Below, piece after piece: positions 5,165 to 35,503 of a DNA stretch of 64,000 nucleotides. Under the pieces are notes generated by a model. That model worked only from the letters and a program-made list of their open reading frames with translations, ran no database searches and was not told where the DNA came from. A program made the position numbers and the translations under genes. Origin of the DNA: an uncultured Roseburia sp. (lineage in GTDB: Bacteria > Bacillota > Clostridia > Lachnospirales > Lachnospiraceae); contig CAMXSH010000001.1 in assembly GCA_947246475.1 (NCBI GenBank), forward strand, positions 62,001 through 126,000. Reading direction: 5' to 3'. Numbering within the stretch: position 1 is the first letter of the stretch; each line of letters opens with the position of its first letter.

Positions 5165-6868
5165 TTAAGAATGCCATATTGCAGCCGCATCCATAAAGGA
5201 ATAGTAGGAGGCTTTTGGGTCATTGATAGACTTTCCGAAAAGAAGAGGCTTTGTATCTGCTTTCCAGGAACATTTATCATAAAGTCCCCAGATCGTCACG
5301 CCAGCGATTCCTTTTTGATTTTTGGTGTGGTCCAGATTTTTTTGCTTGGAGACGATCATTTCCATCAAGCTCTTTATATAGTCTGCCTGGTCTTCGTCGG
5401 TCTGTCCCAGATCCATATATGCCCAGTTATCCCATCCATGGGAATCCTGGGTGCCGGTTTTACCGTAGTTGGTGGAGACATCCAGCTCGGAGATGCTGAC
5501 CTCAAGTCCTGTATTCAGAAACTTATCCAGAGTTTCGCCATAGCCCTCTATGGTTGGATAATCCACACAAAGATGGCTCTGCATACCGATACCTCCACAG
5601 ATGTTGACCGTTTTTCCGTTTTTATCTGTAGCATCCTGGTTGATAAAGTTTACGAGAGAAACGATATCATCGGCGCAATCGTAGGTATTGTAGTCGTTGT
5701 AATATAGAACAACTTTATCCTGCACACCATAGCTCTCCAGTTCATCATAGGCAATCTCGAATGCTTTCTTCAGATAGGATGGCTCCAGTCCCATATCGCC
5801 ATATACGTCATGCCAGGTAATATTCGTGGCGTCGTGGGTGCGGTGTATATATTCATTGACCATATCCCATGCATAGACCAGTGTTCCAGCAGACCCGGTT
5901 AATTCTTTTTCTTTATCCATAACATGGCGCATAACATTTCTCACGAAGAACTCCAGTCTCGCATCCATGACTTCAGGTGTCACTTTCTGGTTACCAGAAT
6001 AATTTTTAACAAAGAATTCTACAGGTGTCTGCTGATGCCATACGAAAGTGTGGCCACGCATCTGAAGTCCCTCTTTTTTCAGCGTCTCCAGTGTACTGTC
6101 AACGGTATCGAGGTTTAAGACAGGTACCATTGATTCAGGATAGTTCTCAGGGATATAATAGCCCATTTTTTTTGCCTCATTGAGGGTGAGCGTTTGAACT
6201 CCTATACCCCAGGCACTGAGTATCGCATCTGGCTTCATCTCATTTTCCAGTGTGATGCTGTTGAAATTCTCATTAATAAAATCCAGTGTGCCGCGGGTTC
6301 TCAGCTGATCTTTCTTCTCATCATATCCATAGTAGTTCGCACAGGTACCCATGTATTTGAAAATGCCATCATAAGCTTCCAGAATATTTGATGGTTCCTG
6401 CCACGGCTTATTACTGCCTGCTGGAGGCTGGGATACGGAAGGTGTTCCAGCTGGAGGAAGTGATGTTGCAGCAGCGGTATGTTTCGGAGTGGTGGCAGGT
6501 TTCTTGACTTTTTTAACTGTAACGTTAACAACAGCTGAAACCGGTTTTTTCTTTGATTTCAGATAGATCTTTGCTGTTACTTTTGTAGTGCCGGTCTTTT
6601 TTCCTTTGATACTGGCGGCGAGCTTTCCGCTCTTTTTGACAGTAACAATCTTTTTATTTTTTGCCTTCCAGGTGATCTTCTTCAATTGCTTTTTCTTAAC
6701 GTTCTTAACTTGAACTTTTTTTGATTTGCCAAGGTTCAGAGATATCTTTTTGACACTCAGCTTTGGCTTCGCAGCGGCTTCTGTCTGAGAAGCCTGAGTA
6801 CAGGGTAACACTGCCGAGAGTAAAAGTGTGCCTGCCATCAGCAATGCAATGTGTTGTTTTCGTTTCAT
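5165..6868 (-). CDS. Secreted GH10 endo-1,4-beta-xylanase with Lys-rich Ig-like N-terminal module
   Basis: Signal peptide; Ig-like region KKISLNLGKSKKVQVKNVKKKQ...; GH10 motifs WDMVNEYIHRT and ISELDVS. Confidence 0.93.
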   Translation of the reverse strand: MKRKQHIALLMAGTLLLSAVLPCTQASQTEAAAKPKLSVKKISLNLGKSKKVQVKNVKKKQLKKITWKAKNKKIVTVKKSGKLAASIKGKKTGTTKVTAKIYLKSKKKPVSAVVNVTVKKVKKPATTPKHTAAATSLPPAGTPSVSQPPAGSNKPWQEPSNILEAYDGIFKYMGTCANYYGYDEKKDQLRTRGTLDFINENFNSITLENEMKPDAILSAWGIGVQTLTLNEAKKMGYYIPENYPESMVPVLNLDTVDSTLETLKKEGLQMRGHTFVWHQQTPVEFFVKNYSGNQKVTPEVMDARLEFFVRNVMRHVMDKEKELTGSAGTLVYAWDMVNEYIHRTHDATNITWHDVYGDMGLEPSYLKKAFEIAYDELESYGVQDKVVLYYNDYNTYDCADDIVSLVNFINQDATDKNGKTVNICGGIGMQSHLCVDYPTIEGYGETLDKFLNTGLEVSISELDVSTNYGKTGTQDSHGWDNWAYMDLGQTDEDQADYIKSLMEMIVSKQKNLDHTKNQKGIAGVTIWGLYDKCSWKADTKPLLFGKSINDPKASYYSFMDAAAIWHS

Positions 6869-6897: not shown

Positions 6898-8544
6898 TTA
6901 TGATTGATACCATACTTCCGCTGCATTTAAAAACTCATCAAAGGATGGTTTTGGATCGTTGATGGAAGTATCAAACAGTGTAGGACGGCTGTTTCCTTTC
7001 TGCTGGAAACCACCTCTCCAGGAAACACTGTCGCAGAGCCCCCAGATGGTGAGACTGGTGATTCCCTTTGGATTGACTGTTTTGTCCAGGTGTTTCTGGG
7101 TATCTATGACCATTTCCATAAAGTCCCGGACATAAGCTGCCTGGTCTTCGTCAGTTTGTCCTTCATCTTTATAATCATATGCTGACTTGTGATCCCAGTT
7201 GATGGTTACGTCCAGCTCAGTGATCTGGATCTCCAGACCGGTCTCCAGGAACATATCCAATGCCTTTTTGTAGACATCGAGGGTTGGGCGGTCTACGTCT
7301 AAGTGGGTCTGCATTCCGATACCGCTGCAGATATAGGTTTCTTCATCCTCGTTGATATAATCCACGAGTTTCACAAGCTGATCTGCATTGAAATAGGTGT
7401 CATAGTCATTGTAGAACAAAGTCACCTTATCCTGTGCCTCATAATTTACCAGCTGCTCATAGGCAAGTTTATATGCTTTCTTTACATAGGTAGGTTTCAG
7501 ATTCTGTTCACCGTATACCGAAGTCCAGGTGGTGATATTGCCGGCATAGCCGTGGTGAAGATATTCGTTTACCACATCCCAGGCGTAAACAATGCTTCCA
7601 GCCTCTCCGGTCAGTTCTATTTCTTTTTCCATGACATGGGACATAACGGTGGAAATGTAAAATTCCAGTCTCGCGTCCATTACCTCTTTGGTGACAACAC
7701 TCGATCCATCTTTGTAATCCTTAACAAAGAACCACTGTGGAGTCTGGCTGTGCCAGAGCAGGGTGTGGCCCCGCATCTTTAGACCATTGTCGTATGCGGT
7801 TTCAAGGGATTTGTCCAACTGTGAAAAATTGAGCTGGGGTACATAGGTTTCTGTATATGTATCTGGAAGGATGTATCCTTTTTCCTTTGCCTGCTTTTTG
7901 GAAATGGGAGTAGCCCAAAAGCCCAGCAGGGAATTGGGTTTCATCTCATTTTCAAGGGTAAAGCTGTTATAATGTTTTTTTACATGGCTCATTGTTTGGG
8001 CATCCTGAAGCTGCCAGCTGTTAAGGCAGTTTCCAAGGTATGGGAAAATGTCGCTGTATTTCCCTAAAATGCTATTAGGATCCGGTGTTGGAACCGGCGT
8101 CGGTGTCTCTGTAAGCGGTGGAGTAATAACTGGTGCTGGGACTGGAGTTGCAGGGGGTGTATTCGTCGGAACGGGTGTTTTTTTCGATGAATCGATATTC
8201 TTTGACTGCTGGACCGTCACTTTACATTTTAAGGTAGTAGTTTTTTTGCCTTTTTTAACCCGGCAGGTGATCACAGCGTTTCCGCGTTTTACCCCAGTAA
8301 TTTTACAGCCATATTTTCCGCTGGCTTTTACCCTGGCGGTCTTTTTTTTGCTGCTCTTCCAGCTGACCTTTGCCTTAGAAGCGTTTTTAACTTTTAAAGT
8401 TACTGTTTTACCGGTTTTTACGCTAAGCCTGCTTTTTGAAAGTTTTGGTTTTTTGGCTGCACCCTCTGCCCCGGCGGGAACCATAAGTGTGATGCACAGC
8501 GCTGCTGTAAGTACCCCGGCTGCTGTTTTTTTGAATCCTGTCAT
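6898..8544 (-). CDS. Secreted GH10 endo-1,4-beta-xylanase with Lys-rich Ig-like N-terminal module
   Basis: Signal peptide, BIG2-like domain, Pro/Thr linker; GH10 motifs WDVVNEYLHHG and ITELDVT; paralogue of the adjacent gene. Confidence 0.93.
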   Translation of the reverse strand: MTGFKKTAAGVLTAALCITLMVPAGAEGAAKKPKLSKSRLSVKTGKTVTLKVKNASKAKVSWKSSKKKTARVKASGKYGCKITGVKRGNAVITCRVKKGKKTTTLKCKVTVQQSKNIDSSKKTPVPTNTPPATPVPAPVITPPLTETPTPVPTPDPNSILGKYSDIFPYLGNCLNSWQLQDAQTMSHVKKHYNSFTLENEMKPNSLLGFWATPISKKQAKEKGYILPDTYTETYVPQLNFSQLDKSLETAYDNGLKMRGHTLLWHSQTPQWFFVKDYKDGSSVVTKEVMDARLEFYISTVMSHVMEKEIELTGEAGSIVYAWDVVNEYLHHGYAGNITTWTSVYGEQNLKPTYVKKAYKLAYEQLVNYEAQDKVTLFYNDYDTYFNADQLVKLVDYINEDEETYICSGIGMQTHLDVDRPTLDVYKKALDMFLETGLEIQITELDVTINWDHKSAYDYKDEGQTDEDQAAYVRDFMEMVIDTQKHLDKTVNPKGITSLTIWGLCDSVSWRGGFQQKGNSRPTLFDTSINDPKPSFDEFLNAAEVWYQS

Positions 8545-30840: not shown

Positions 30841-31019
30841 GCCCTTTTTCTTAACCAAATGGCGCTATAGGGATAAAAAAGGGTAAAAAATAGTGATTTA
30901 CATGTAATATAAGTATGCGTTACACCAAAACAGTGTGAATGCGCAGCTTGCTACGTATATTTGATGTGAAAAAGTCTCATATTTACATATATGCTATATT
31001 GTATAAAGGATGTGTGCGT

Positions 31020-31373
31020 ATGAGATTACTGGAATTGCGTATTTCGAATAAATTATCGCAGAAAGAGCTTGGTAAAGCCCTGGATCTGACGCAACAGCGT
31101 ATCAGTCTGCTTGAGCAGGGTAAGAGTTATCCAAATTCTATCGAGATCACAAAGTATGCGACGTATTTCGATGTATCAGCAGATTATGTGCTGGAGATCA
31201 GCCCAAGAAAAAATCCTTTTGCAGAGATGGAGGGGCTGGTGCGTGGAAACAGAGAGATTCTGTTATTAAAGTATTATTCTAAACTGAATGAGAACATGAA
31301 GAAATACATTCTGGAAATGACACAGAAGGCGCAAAAATATCAGGGAAACGACGAAACGGATACATTGTCCTAA
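31020..31373 (+). CDS. XRE-family HTH transcriptional regulator
   Basis: MRLLELRISNKLSQKELGKALDLTQQRISLLEQGKSYPNSIEITKYATYFDVSADYVL. Confidence 0.92.
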   Translation: MRLLELRISNKLSQKELGKALDLTQQRISLLEQGKSYPNSIEITKYATYFDVSADYVLEISPRKNPFAEMEGLVRGNREILLLKYYSKLNENMKKYILEMTQKAQKYQGNDETDTLS

Positions 31374-31519: not shown

Positions 31520-32266
31520 TTGAAAAACATACTTGTACTTGAAGATGAAGTTGAGTGCAACCAGCTGTTATGTGATATTGTTACTACAAGCAAGGAAAGA
31601 ATAACAGTTTATCCAGCTTTTAATGAAAAAGAGGCGATGCAGATTGCACTTGAATGTCATATGGATCTGTTTCTTGTCGACATTTCATTACATGACCTGC
31701 AGGGAAATGATGTGTCGGGCGTAAAATTTGCCAAACAGATTCGCAATATTGATTATTATGAAGTTACGCCAATTATCTTTGTGACATCTATTGCCAATCT
31801 CGAACTCCATTCTTATCGCGAAGTTTCCTGTTATAGCTATATTTTAAAACCGATTGATGATGAGAAGCAGAAACAGCTTGCTGTGGAAATCGACAAACTT
31901 CTCAAGGACAGAAAGTCTGTCGCCAGAGAGCAGTATCTTTATTTTAAGGTTGATTCTGTTTTTTATCCTATAAAAGTTGATGAAATTATAACCATCCGCT
32001 GTATTAATAGAAGATTGCTCATACATACAATATCGGATAAATTTTATGTGAACAAGCTGACGTTAAAACAGATTCAGAAAGAATTGAATGCCATGGGGTT
32101 CAATCCTTTTGTAGAGTGCCATCGTGGGATTCTGGTAAATCTGGATCATGTGGAACATATCGACAGAGTTAATAAATATGTGAAAGTGTACAAAGAAGAT
32201 CAAATGATTGATTTTGGAAGAACCAAATGGTTTTCGGAAATACAAGGAGTAATTGAGCGTGATTAG
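31520..32266 (+). CDS. LytTR-family response regulator (AgrA-like), TTG start
   Basis: Receiver domain (VLEDEVECNQ...LFLVDISLHDLQG...ILKP) plus LytTR domain (YLYFKVDSVFYPIKVDEIITI...FVECHRGILVNLDHVEHIDR). Confidence 0.92.
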   Translation: MKNILVLEDEVECNQLLCDIVTTSKERITVYPAFNEKEAMQIALECHMDLFLVDISLHDLQGNDVSGVKFAKQIRNIDYYEVTPIIFVTSIANLELHSYREVSCYSYILKPIDDEKQKQLAVEIDKLLKDRKSVAREQYLYFKVDSVFYPIKVDEIITIRCINRRLLIHTISDKFYVNKLTLKQIQKELNAMGFNPFVECHRGILVNLDHVEHIDRVNKYVKVYKEDQMIDFGRTKWFSEIQGVIERD

Positions 32267-33533
32267 TAATATTTTAATGGCAGGGATAGAGCAGACGGCG
32301 GTATTTATTGTTATCGACAGCCTGTTCGGAGGCGGCCAGAAAAAAGACATTGGCAAAAAAATAAGCATAATCCTTATGCAAACTACTATTTTAGCTCTTT
32401 TCAATATGTTCCAACTGACTGGGGTGTGGATGTTTCTGGTTTATGCTATATTGATAGCTGGTGTGAAGCTGATCTATCAAAGCAATATAAATATCAGTGT
32501 CTTGTATTGTATCATAGCGTTTTTGATGGTAAGTGCCATTGAACTTCTGCTCTATATTCCCTTTGCCTTTTTCTGGAAGGAGATGGTGGGAGATTCCCGG
32601 GCAGGTCTTATCGGAACCGGCGGCGCCCTGCTTGTGGTGTGCGCTGCCCGCAGAAAGAGGTGGATCAACTGGAATATGATCCAGGATTTTGTAAAATGCC
32701 GTTACAAGATGCTGTGTTATATCTGTGCGGCAGTGGGAAGTATCATGCTCTTTGCCGTGTCGTATTTCCGGGTTCTGGAAAGTATGCCGATTTACAGTTT
32801 TATCTTTTTGATCCTGATGATCGTTATCTTGTTTCCAATGATGTCTCAGTTTATCAAAAATGAGGTTGAATTAAAGGAGCGCAGCAAATTTGAAAAACCT
32901 ATGCGGGATGTGATCACAAGGATCCGGCAGCAACAGCACCAGTTTGATGCCCATCTGCAGGCAATTTATGGAATAATCAATCGGTGCCAGACTTATGATT
33001 GTCTGGTAGAGACACTGGAAGGTTATATGTCTAAGATTCAGAGAATGGACGCCTTTTACAGCCTGATCAAGGTGGAAGATCCAGTGCTGTCGGGTTTTCT
33101 CGGAGTCAAATTTTCGGAGGCAGTAAACCGGGGTATTCATATTTCACAGGAGATATCAGTGAAAAAGATATGCACCAATATTCCCCTCACAGAGCTGATC
33201 GGTACCTTTGGGAACCTGATCGACAATGCCATCGAGGAGGTTGAGACCAACTATCTCAAAAAGGAGATCCGGCTGTCTTTGCACGAAGAGGGGGACTGGT
33301 ATGAATTCATTATATCGAACCCGATCCGGAATACAAATATGTATGAGATCACCAATTTTTCCAAGAAAGGATACAGTACAAAGGAAAATGCAGAGATGCG
33401 TGGGCTGGGACTGTATAATGTGCTGGATACGCTGAACCATTATAAGGGACAATTGTACATGAATAAGTACACAGTAGAAGAAACGGATTGGTTTGCAGTG
33501 CGGATCAAAATAAAAAGGCTTACATGTAAATAA
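32253..33533 (+). CDS. GHKL-domain sensor histidine kinase (AgrC-like)
   Basis: Polytopic N-terminus; HQFDAHLQAIYG phosphoacceptor region; FGNLIDNAIEEVE and GLGLYNVLDTLNHYKGQL. Confidence 0.92.
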   Translation: MSVISNILMAGIEQTAVFIVIDSLFGGGQKKDIGKKISIILMQTTILALFNMFQLTGVWMFLVYAILIAGVKLIYQSNINISVLYCIIAFLMVSAIELLLYIPFAFFWKEMVGDSRAGLIGTGGALLVVCAARRKRWINWNMIQDFVKCRYKMLCYICAAVGSIMLFAVSYFRVLESMPIYSFIFLILMIVILFPMMSQFIKNEVELKERSKFEKPMRDVITRIRQQQHQFDAHLQAIYGIINRCQTYDCLVETLEGYMSKIQRMDAFYSLIKVEDPVLSGFLGVKFSEAVNRGIHISQEISVKKICTNIPLTELIGTFGNLIDNAIEEVETNYLKKEIRLSLHEEGDWYEFIISNPIRNTNMYEITNFSKKGYSTKENAEMRGLGLYNVLDTLNHYKGQLYMNKYTVEETDWFAVRIKIKRLTCK

Positions 33534-33586: not shown

Positions 33587-33715
33587 TTAGTCTTCTGTTG
33601 GATAATCCGGCTCACCCCAGAAGCAAAGACTGATAACGCCGGTGGTCATCATGGCAGCCATGGCAATGCATAAACTGCAGATTTTAAATAAAAGACTGCT
33701 ATTGAATTTTTTCAT
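33587..33715 (-). CDS. agrD: AgrD-like cyclic (thio)lactone autoinducer precursor peptide, 42 aa
   Basis: MKKFNSSLLFKICSLCIAMAAMMTTGVISLCFWGEPDYPTED: amphipathic leader, Cys, acidic P-x-x-P tail; strong RBS AAAGGAGGGAAGA; overlaps the agrB 3' end. Confidence 0.85.
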   Translation of the reverse strand: MKKFNSSLLFKICSLCIAMAAMMTTGVISLCFWGEPDYPTED

Positions 33716-34286
33716 TCTTCCCTCCTTTCTGTGCGGCAAAGGCACAAAGTAGTTGTAATGTCTGTAAAACAATAATCCAGAAGCAGATATCTGCGATTGG
33801 AGTTGTTTTCAAAATGATAATAAAAACAGAGTAAAGGAACAAAAGTCCTGTCGCCCTGTTGCGGTACCGGCGTTTGGTCTCTGGTGCTGCGGGGGGTCTT
33901 TTTTTTGCCGCCACTGGTGAAGCCAGAAATGTGATTAGGATACAAAGAGCCAGTATCACAGGTTTGAAAGCATAGGGAACCGATACACAGGCAGGCAGAA
34001 CGATCACTGTCAACAGCATAAATGTCAATGTAAATAAAAAACAGGTAATAAAATGTTCCATATGAAGACCGCCTGAATTGCACCGGATGGTGATAAGTAC
34101 CAGTACACCGATGAAAAATTCGGGAAGATGTCCCAGGTAAAAAAATAAAACGGAAAGCAGCAATGTCTTGACCAGTTCTGAACTTACAGCCTTAAGGGTG
34201 TACTTTAGACGCTTCATTTCCAGATCCGTGAATTGGTAAGATGACTGGATCTGCTCCAGAAACTGTTCCGCGTGAATGACTGCCAT
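33699..34286 (-). CDS. agrB: AgrB-like peptide-processing membrane endopeptidase
   Basis: RCNSGGLHMEHFITC matches the AgrB His-x6-Cys catalytic arrangement; polytopic; start MAVIHAEQF. Confidence 0.9.
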   Translation of the reverse strand: MAVIHAEQFLEQIQSSYQFTDLEMKRLKYTLKAVSSELVKTLLLSVLFFYLGHLPEFFIGVLVLITIRCNSGGLHMEHFITCFLFTLTFMLLTVIVLPACVSVPYAFKPVILALCILITFLASPVAAKKRPPAAPETKRRYRNRATGLLFLYSVFIIILKTTPIADICFWIIVLQTLQLLCAFAAQKGGKNEKIQ

Positions 34287-34349
34287 ATTGCAGTATCCTC
34301 CTTTACGAAAAATATGCAATGCACCGGTGCAGTCGACTTGTTGTGTAAT

Positions 34350-34377
34350 AGTATAGCGGAAAAATTGACAAAAACAA
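34350..34377 (-). promoter_or_regulatory. Putative agrBD promoter
   Basis: On minus strand TTGTTT-N16-TATACT. Confidence 0.5.
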
Positions 34378-34384
34378 GGGGGAG

Positions 34385-34480
34385 TGCGCGAACTGTGCGA
34401 TTTCGTGTCTGAAATCATAAAAAATGGCCTCAAACGACGAAGCATCGTTATTTCAGACACGAAATAACACGGTTCGCGCA
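34385..34480. repeat. 31-bp near-perfect inverted repeat (3 mismatches) between divergent agrBD and BtrH-like gene
   Basis: Left arm TGCGCGAACTGTGCGATTTCGTGTCTGAAAT (34385-34415), right arm ATTTCAGACACGAAATAACACGGTTCGCGCA (34450-34480). Confidence 0.92.
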
Positions 34481-34509
34481 AAAGTATACCATCTTTTTCC
34501 TGTTTCCTG

Positions 34510-34515
34510 TATAAT
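34510..34515 (+). promoter_or_regulatory. Putative -10 element of BtrH-like gene, weak -35
   Basis: TATAAT 38 nt before the ATG at 34553; arm-to--10 spacing 29 nt, same as on the agrBD side. Confidence 0.5.
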
Positions 34516-34552
34516 AATTAAAGAACAAAAGAATTTTAAGGAGGAACTGATT

Positions 34553-35503
34553 ATGGATATGGAATTAGGTATGGAACTAGTATTGGATGCGAACCTCTCA
34601 ATGTGCGAATGTAATAATTGTTTTATGGGATCATTTCTTCAGATGATGCGCTATAAAGGAGTGAGGTTGAGTGAATTGGAGGTACAGCTTCCCTATGCTG
34701 GTGTCAGGCTCAGTTTGTCATATCAGGATGGAATCAGTCTGAGTGCTAATTTTATTCAGGGCATACATTATTTTTGTTCGGAAAATCAGATTGCGTATAA
34801 GACAGGGGAGATTCTGCCACAGCACATAAGGGAAGTGGCATATGAGATTTTGTCAGAGCACGGTGCGTTTATGATTTCGTTGAATTCGAGAGATTATGGA
34901 TATTATAAGGCTTTTGTCAATGATGGGATACAGCACTGTACACTGGTGACAGGAGTGGACAAGGAAGGGCTGCACATCGTGGATGTCTGTGCCTCAACGT
35001 CCCAGCCGACGACACATAAGGGGGTTCTTCCTTTTGGGAACATTCTTGAAATTGGTCAGCATCAGCCGATTCCCATCGCTTACATAGAAGGGGAAGTGAC
35101 CTGGGATAAAAAAGAGAAGGAGATTGACTGGGTACAGGCAAGAAAAAATCACATGGAAGAAAATATAAAATTAGAACAGGGCGGCAGACTTAGGACAGGT
35201 CTGGACTATTGTGAATATCTTTACTCGGATCTGTCTTCTCTAAGGGGATTTGAACTTCGTAAAATTGCCCATAACATTATGACGGATACCCATGTTCCCC
35301 AGTTGAAGATGCTCATAAATCTGTTTGCAGATAAAAAACAACAGGAATATTATATTAAAATAAACCAGCTGTGCAATGACTGGACTCTGATGTCTTATCG
35401 TTTTCTAAAAGGAAGTTTTGAGTATGATTTCGCAGATCAGGAAACCCTTGTCTATAATTACAAAGCGCTTCTAGAGAGAGAACGGGAGATATATCAGCTA
35501 TAA
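34553..35503 (+). CDS. BtrH_N/C39-like papain-fold protein (putative cysteine enzyme)
   Basis: N-terminal CECNNCFMGSFLQMM, then IQHCTLVTGVDKEGLHIVDVCAS (His...Asp) resembling C39/BtrH catalytic order; start preceded by AAGGAGG. Confidence 0.6.
   Translation: MDMELGMELVLDANLSMCECNNCFMGSFLQMMRYKGVRLSELEVQLPYAGVRLSLSYQDGISLSANFIQGIHYFCSENQIAYKTGEILPQHIREVAYEILSEHGAFMISLNSRDYGYYKAFVNDGIQHCTLVTGVDKEGLHIVDVCASTSQPTTHKGVLPFGNILEIGQHQPIPIAYIEGEVTWDKKEKEIDWVQARKNHMEENIKLEQGGRLRTGLDYCEYLYSDLSSLRGFELRKIAHNIMTDTHVPQLKMLINLFADKKQQEYYIKINQLCNDWTLMSYRFLKGSFEYDFADQETLVYNYKALLEREREIYQL

Follow-up and report, generated by a model that had tools for sequence, protein, structure and literature searches.

The window analysed here is a 64,000 nt stretch of DNA from an uncultured Roseburia species, and it carries an Agr-type locus (Table 1) in which AgrB (PF04647), an AgrD-like signal precursor, an AgrC-like histidine kinase (HATPase_c_5) and a response regulator with receiver and LytTR domains (Response_reg and LytTR) are encoded together. 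The precursor gave no match in a search with family models. The kinase and regulator genes run towards agrBD. Divergently from agrB lies a gene for a BtrH/CtaG-like protein with a cysteine acyltransferase fold. A good ribosome binding site precedes both the agrB start at 34286 (minus strand) and the BtrH-like start at 34553; a longer frame that begins at 34424 crosses the right arm of the repeat described below and is not the start of the BtrH-like gene. The cassette also includes a conserved XRE-type regulator gene (30939-31373), which carries an in-frame stop in one genome (G017).

Between the two divergent genes is an inverted repeat with arms of 31 nt that match at 28 of 31 positions (90% complementary) and are separated by 34 nt. 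By hand calculation, a repeat of such length and proximity (31 positions, at most three mismatches, a gap of at most 100) would arise by chance in 64 kb with a probability of approximately 1e-7. On both sides of the repeat the distance from arm to −10 element is exactly 29 nt. The −35 elements are weak, being TACCAT with a 17 nt spacer on the right, and either TTGTTT with 16 nt or CTTGTT with 17 nt on the left. Both promoters fall below the threshold of a simple sigma-70 scan, in agreement with these weak elements. The original prediction had described the arms, their degree of match, the two 29 nt distances and both −10 elements, all of which were confirmed by the repeat search and the sequence, and its description of the −35 elements as weak was likewise borne out.

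Table 1. Features of the agrBD/BtrH-like intergenic region, its neighbouring genes and the more distant RiPP cluster.
Feature	Position	Strand	Remarks
Response regulator, receiver and LytTR domains, proposed binder	31520-32266	+	
AgrC-like histidine kinase (HATPase_c_5)	32253-33533	+	
AgrD-like signal precursor	33587-33715	-	MKKFNSSLLFKICSLCIAMAAMMTTGVISLCFWGEPDYPTED; named by position and sequence
agrB	33699-34286	-	PF04647, 8.6e-25 (scanned as ORF 33699-34481)
−10 of agrBD promoter	34350-34355	-	TATACT; invariant in six genomes
Left arm, putative activator site for agrBD promoter	34385-34415	-	ATTTCAGACACGAAATCGCACAGTTCGCGCA (written towards promoter)
Proximal half-site, left arm	34388-34396	-	ACAGTTCGC; ends 9-10 bp before −35 position
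Distal half-site, left arm	34409-34417	-	TGATTTCAG; direct repeat at 21 bp offset
Spacer between arms, 34 bp	34416-34449	.	Inverted in G020 (L013); 10/34 columns invariant
Distal half-site, right arm	34448-34456	+	TTATTTCAG
Right arm, putative activator site for BtrH-like gene promoter	34450-34480	+	ATTTCAGACACGAAATAACACGGTTCGCGCA (written towards promoter)
Proximal half-site, right arm	34469-34477	+	ACGGTTCGC; ends 9 bp before −35 position
−10 of BtrH-like gene promoter	34510-34515	+	TATAAT; invariant in six genomes
BtrH/CtaG-like cysteine acyltransferase-fold protein, proposed target gene	34553-35503	+	
Cys-rich-peptide RiPP cluster, one motif copy upstream	L097:4049-12074 (G000:C3)		72-aa precursor at 7183-7401

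Each arm had been credited with a partial LytTR-like half-site at its promoter-proximal end. A half-site is present there, but the arm is not partial, as a second half-site located 21 bp upstream of the first completes it (TTCAGACA versus TTCGCGCA, five of eight bases in common). The two share a TTYRNRCA core at an offset of exactly 21 bp, which corresponds to an arrangement of 9 bp, 12 bp and 9 bp. Comparable pairs occur in a more distant species of the genus (G023), upstream of its BtrH-like orthologue (TTCAGACA/TTCACACA, seven of eight bases in common) and of its subtilase gene (TTCAGACA/TTTATACA, six of eight), and all of these half-sites fit the same core. The 21 bp offset, and with it the 12 bp spacing, is found in all seven distinct sites, among which it gives the highest half-site identity of any offset (mean of 5.4 of 8 bases); permuted distal halves reach this identity with P = 0.001, in a test that was picked after the repeat had been seen. 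The proximal half-site ACAGTTCGC bears some resemblance to AgrA and ComE half-sites, the distal TGATTTCAG less.

Judged by the position of the weak −35 elements, the direct repeat ends 9-10 bp before the −35 at agrB and the BtrH-like gene, and the gap is 10 bp at the subtilase and RiPP promoters described below. With predicted transcription starts 7 nt beyond the −10 elements, near 34343 on the minus strand and 34522 on the plus strand, the site would be centred near −60. Published LytTR sites consist of 9 bp repeats with 12 bp between them and in most cases end 10 bp ahead of the −35, and membership has been defined by direct repeats of about 9 bp, 11-13 bp apart and 4-11 bp (usually 10) from the −35 (PMC6193735). 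At P2 and P3 of the agr system, the proximal AgrA repeats are centred near −60 (PMC4227749). In its spacing, each arm forms a full direct repeat of the LytTR type, with a layout matching that of published LytTR and AgrA activator sites.

Comparison of orthologous intergenic regions, which had been proposed as a check on this arrangement, turned out in its favour. In five further species of the genus the gene order is the same and the region aligns end to end; both arms, the 29 nt spacing and the −10 elements are kept, with arms and −10 elements nearly invariant and the spacer variable, though the five loci are just 3-13% diverged and arm conservation there is weak evidence alone. Invariant columns account for 114 of 124 in the arms versus 124 of 223 in the adjoining gaps and spacers (Fisher 1e-13), and for 57 of 62 versus 72 of 131 at the more diverged subtilase locus alone (P = 9e-8), the columns being not independent in either comparison. 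Because the six genomes are close, the stronger evidence comes from the subtilase sites, from the sites in G023, and from the restriction of the motif within the genus.

The 31 bp motif occurs in seven of the 39 genomes of our genus sample. Each of the six with the agr cassette carries four copies, located before agrB, before the BtrH-like gene and, as a pair, before a gene for a large subtilase with CBM2 domains; neither the 32 other genomes of the genus nor 391 further genomes of the order contain it. The motif, the BtrH-like gene and the subtilase orthologue (at least 60% identity) are limited to the same seven genomes of the genus, the search for the BtrH-like gene having covered 37 genomes and the motif count 39; no BtrH-like relatives were found outside the genus in the order-wide sample. 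Orthologues of the regulator (94-95% identity) are present in exactly the six cassette genomes, the next best relatives being at most 35% identical. Neither the remaining agr loci of the window's genome nor those of G023 yielded a copy. The kinase and regulator genes (31520-33533) also carry no copy, and any feedback would thus be limited to the signal operon.

At the subtilase gene (PF00082, PF00553), the two motif copies form an inverted pair in the interval between it and trpS, with arms about 101-103 nt apart in all six genomes. The subtilase promoter (TTGAAA-17-TATGTT) has the motif at activating distance. The other copy (L017:6793-6823) faces trpS; it has no −10 at that distance and abuts a TTGACA that points towards the subtilase gene. 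We rejected trpS as a further target, given that no −10 lies 29-30 nt from the arm facing it and that the distance to the TTGACT of trpS varies among species owing to an indel.

The window's genome holds one additional copy, which has three mismatches and is located 10 bp before TTGAAA-17-CATGAT. Downstream are genes for an ABC transporter, a subtilisin-like protein, a Cys-rich peptide of 72 residues, an AMP-ligase, a CcpM-like radical SAM maturase and a TIGR04066 protein. By hand calculation, about 1e-4 chance matches per genome are expected at the stringency of this site. A 94% identical RiPP cluster in a related genome (G016) has no motif upstream, which led us to reject the cluster as a conserved target and to regard it as a target specific to the window's genome. 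It is probably a member of the regulon, with less certainty than the other targets. Counting the subtilase and RiPP promoters, there are six activator positions, and in every one of them 29 or 30 nt separate the arm from the −10.

The seventh genome, G023, encodes orthologues of the BtrH-like protein (46-47% identity) and of the subtilase (60%), each preceded by a single motif copy, 30 and 29 nt, respectively, from a −10. The subtilase site is the weaker of the two and was picked up by a matrix scan but not by the pattern search. The motif lies between tRNA-Leu and the BtrH-like gene, where the agr cassette is absent, and the best regulators in this genome are just 32-33% identical to that of the window. 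G023 has sites and no orthologue of the regulator, which implies that the site is recognized in this species either by a distant relative of the regulator or by some other protein. Elsewhere (C54) its genome has a distantly related agr locus whose genes are arranged in the same convergent way (regulator 33%, AgrB 35%, AgrD-like peptide 40%), and no motif was found at the agrB promoter of that locus. The AgrD-like peptide encoded there (L099:7978-8109) has Ile at the ring-cysteine position (SYIFFGEP versus SYCFWGEP). In a simple history, the single sites may be older, and the agr cassette with its mirrored site may have arrived later in the six-species group.

Among the alternatives, the one that survives best holds that the motif is the control site of this same regulon but is bound by another protein common to the seven genomes, either a different LytTR protein or a helix-turn-helix protein acting on ATTTC-N6-GAAAT. 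This 16 bp palindromic core is the best-conserved part of the site, more conserved than a LytTR spacer needs to be, and it persists in G023. The window's genome encodes 12 LytTR domains and five AgrB proteins, and the XRE-type gene lies within the cassette itself. However, the spacing of the half-sites, their distance from the −35 and their centring near −60 all fit a LytTR protein, and the regulator and sites occur together in six genomes. Moreover, the RiPP site alters both symmetric positions of the palindrome such that symmetry is not restored, and the XRE-type gene, interrupted in G017, was not found at the G023 locus. We therefore regard a different binder as unlikely.

Far less probable is that the repeat works not through two protein sites but through a hairpin in DNA or RNA (a cruciform, terminator or attenuator) or by acting as an invertible switch. 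The single strand does fold strongly (−33.9 kcal/mol, z −10.5), and the arms do exchange sequence: in G020 the 34 bp spacer (L013, about 5864-5897) has the opposite orientation to that in the other five genomes, whereas in G016 an AA/CG dinucleotide is swapped between arms with the spacer not inverted. These alignments indicate that the arms recombine or convert, through repeated short inversion or gene conversion. Because the spacer yielded no promoter and one arm is equivalent to the other, inversion should leave regulation unchanged. Both arms are upstream of the predicted starts and would be absent from both transcripts, which argues against a terminator or attenuator, and a riboswitch or other structured RNA was rejected for want of any Rfam match. 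Furthermore, the arm spacing of 34 nt here differs from that at the subtilase gene, and the sites in G023 and at the RiPP cluster are single arms. The weakest alternative, a MITE-like mobile or repetitive element scattered across the genome, can draw on two or three loci with nearly identical copies but is rejected on the genome-wide and order-wide counts. A genome has no more than 4-5 copies, almost all of which keep a fixed distance from a promoter that the distant species shares, and there is a single exact partial match in viral contigs that is a lone core with no second half-site.

The label BtrH-like is reasonable as a statement about fold. The predicted model (pLDDT 61, which is modest) has as its best Foldseek matches CtaG of closthioamide biosynthesis (closest, E about 1e-5), AziU2-U3 and CcbD, proteins with the BtrH-type cysteine acyltransferase fold. 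The window protein shares only about 12-14% sequence identity with them and has no match to Pfam BtrH_N, for which the G023 orthologue (L018:7591-8511) scores 24.2 bits, below the cut-off of 29.7. As to the Cys-His-Asp triad expected of such enzymes, His128 and Asp144 are invariant in a five-sequence alignment. The G023 orthologue keeps both but lacks every one of the window protein's three N-terminal cysteines, and hence cysteine catalysis is not conserved throughout.

Taken together, these findings make it likely that the arms serve a LytTR quorum regulon. Each would be fully sufficient to bind one dimer of a LytTR-type regulator, for which the AgrA-like protein encoded at 31520-32266 is the likeliest candidate. 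As the agrB/agrD signal peptide builds up, the kinase would phosphorylate this regulator, which would then bind both arms and recruit RNA polymerase to the two weak divergent promoters. Through the left arm it would switch on agrBD, giving positive feedback on the signal only, and through the right arm the gene for the BtrH-like enzyme. The same protein would activate the CBM2-subtilase gene elsewhere and, in the window's genome, probably the RiPP cluster. Three points weigh against this model, namely the sites in G023 in a genome with no close regulator, the palindromic core, and the trpS-facing arm that lacks a fitting −10. That agrBD and the BtrH-like gene form one regulon, as originally put forward, is nonetheless well supported by the limitation of the motif to a few promoters and by the spacing kept in G023, and the regulon appears larger than proposed. 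It is a doubtful further step, and one we consider quite improbable, to see here a quorum system of related gut Clostridia with a CtaG/BtrH-like amide- or ester-forming enzyme and a large carbohydrate-binding subtilase as its dedicated output, possibly acting on the signal peptide or on a co-controlled peptide product. A literature search on agr control of closthioamide-type genes returned nothing relevant.

Agr-type systems are frequent among the Clostridia of the gut, and to our knowledge the binding site and target genes of most are not known. Here, a 31 bp site recognized from sequence alone leads to a compact candidate regulon of signal operon, acyltransferase-fold enzyme, secreted-type subtilase and RiPP cluster, which permits a direct test and gives a pattern for finding the targets of other agr systems.

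We view the region as a putative pair of divergent promoters of the AgrA type, whose candidate regulon is small and unusually well defined. Among its closest counterparts is the agr P2-P3 region of Staphylococcus aureus (PMC4227749), which likewise has divergent agr promoters, each weak and with its own direct-repeat site near −60. In S. aureus, however, the second promoter serves RNAIII rather than a BtrH/CtaG-like gene. The two sites described here are near-perfect mirror copies with a different half-site sequence, and the kinase and regulator genes form a separate convergent unit outside the agrBD operon. The LytTR Regulatory Systems HdrR and BrsR (PMC6193735) share the 9-12-9 bp direct repeats located approximately 10 bp upstream of the −35, but HdrR and BrsR have no receiver domain and work with inhibitor proteins in the membrane, whereas the candidate regulator in the window belongs to a two-component system.
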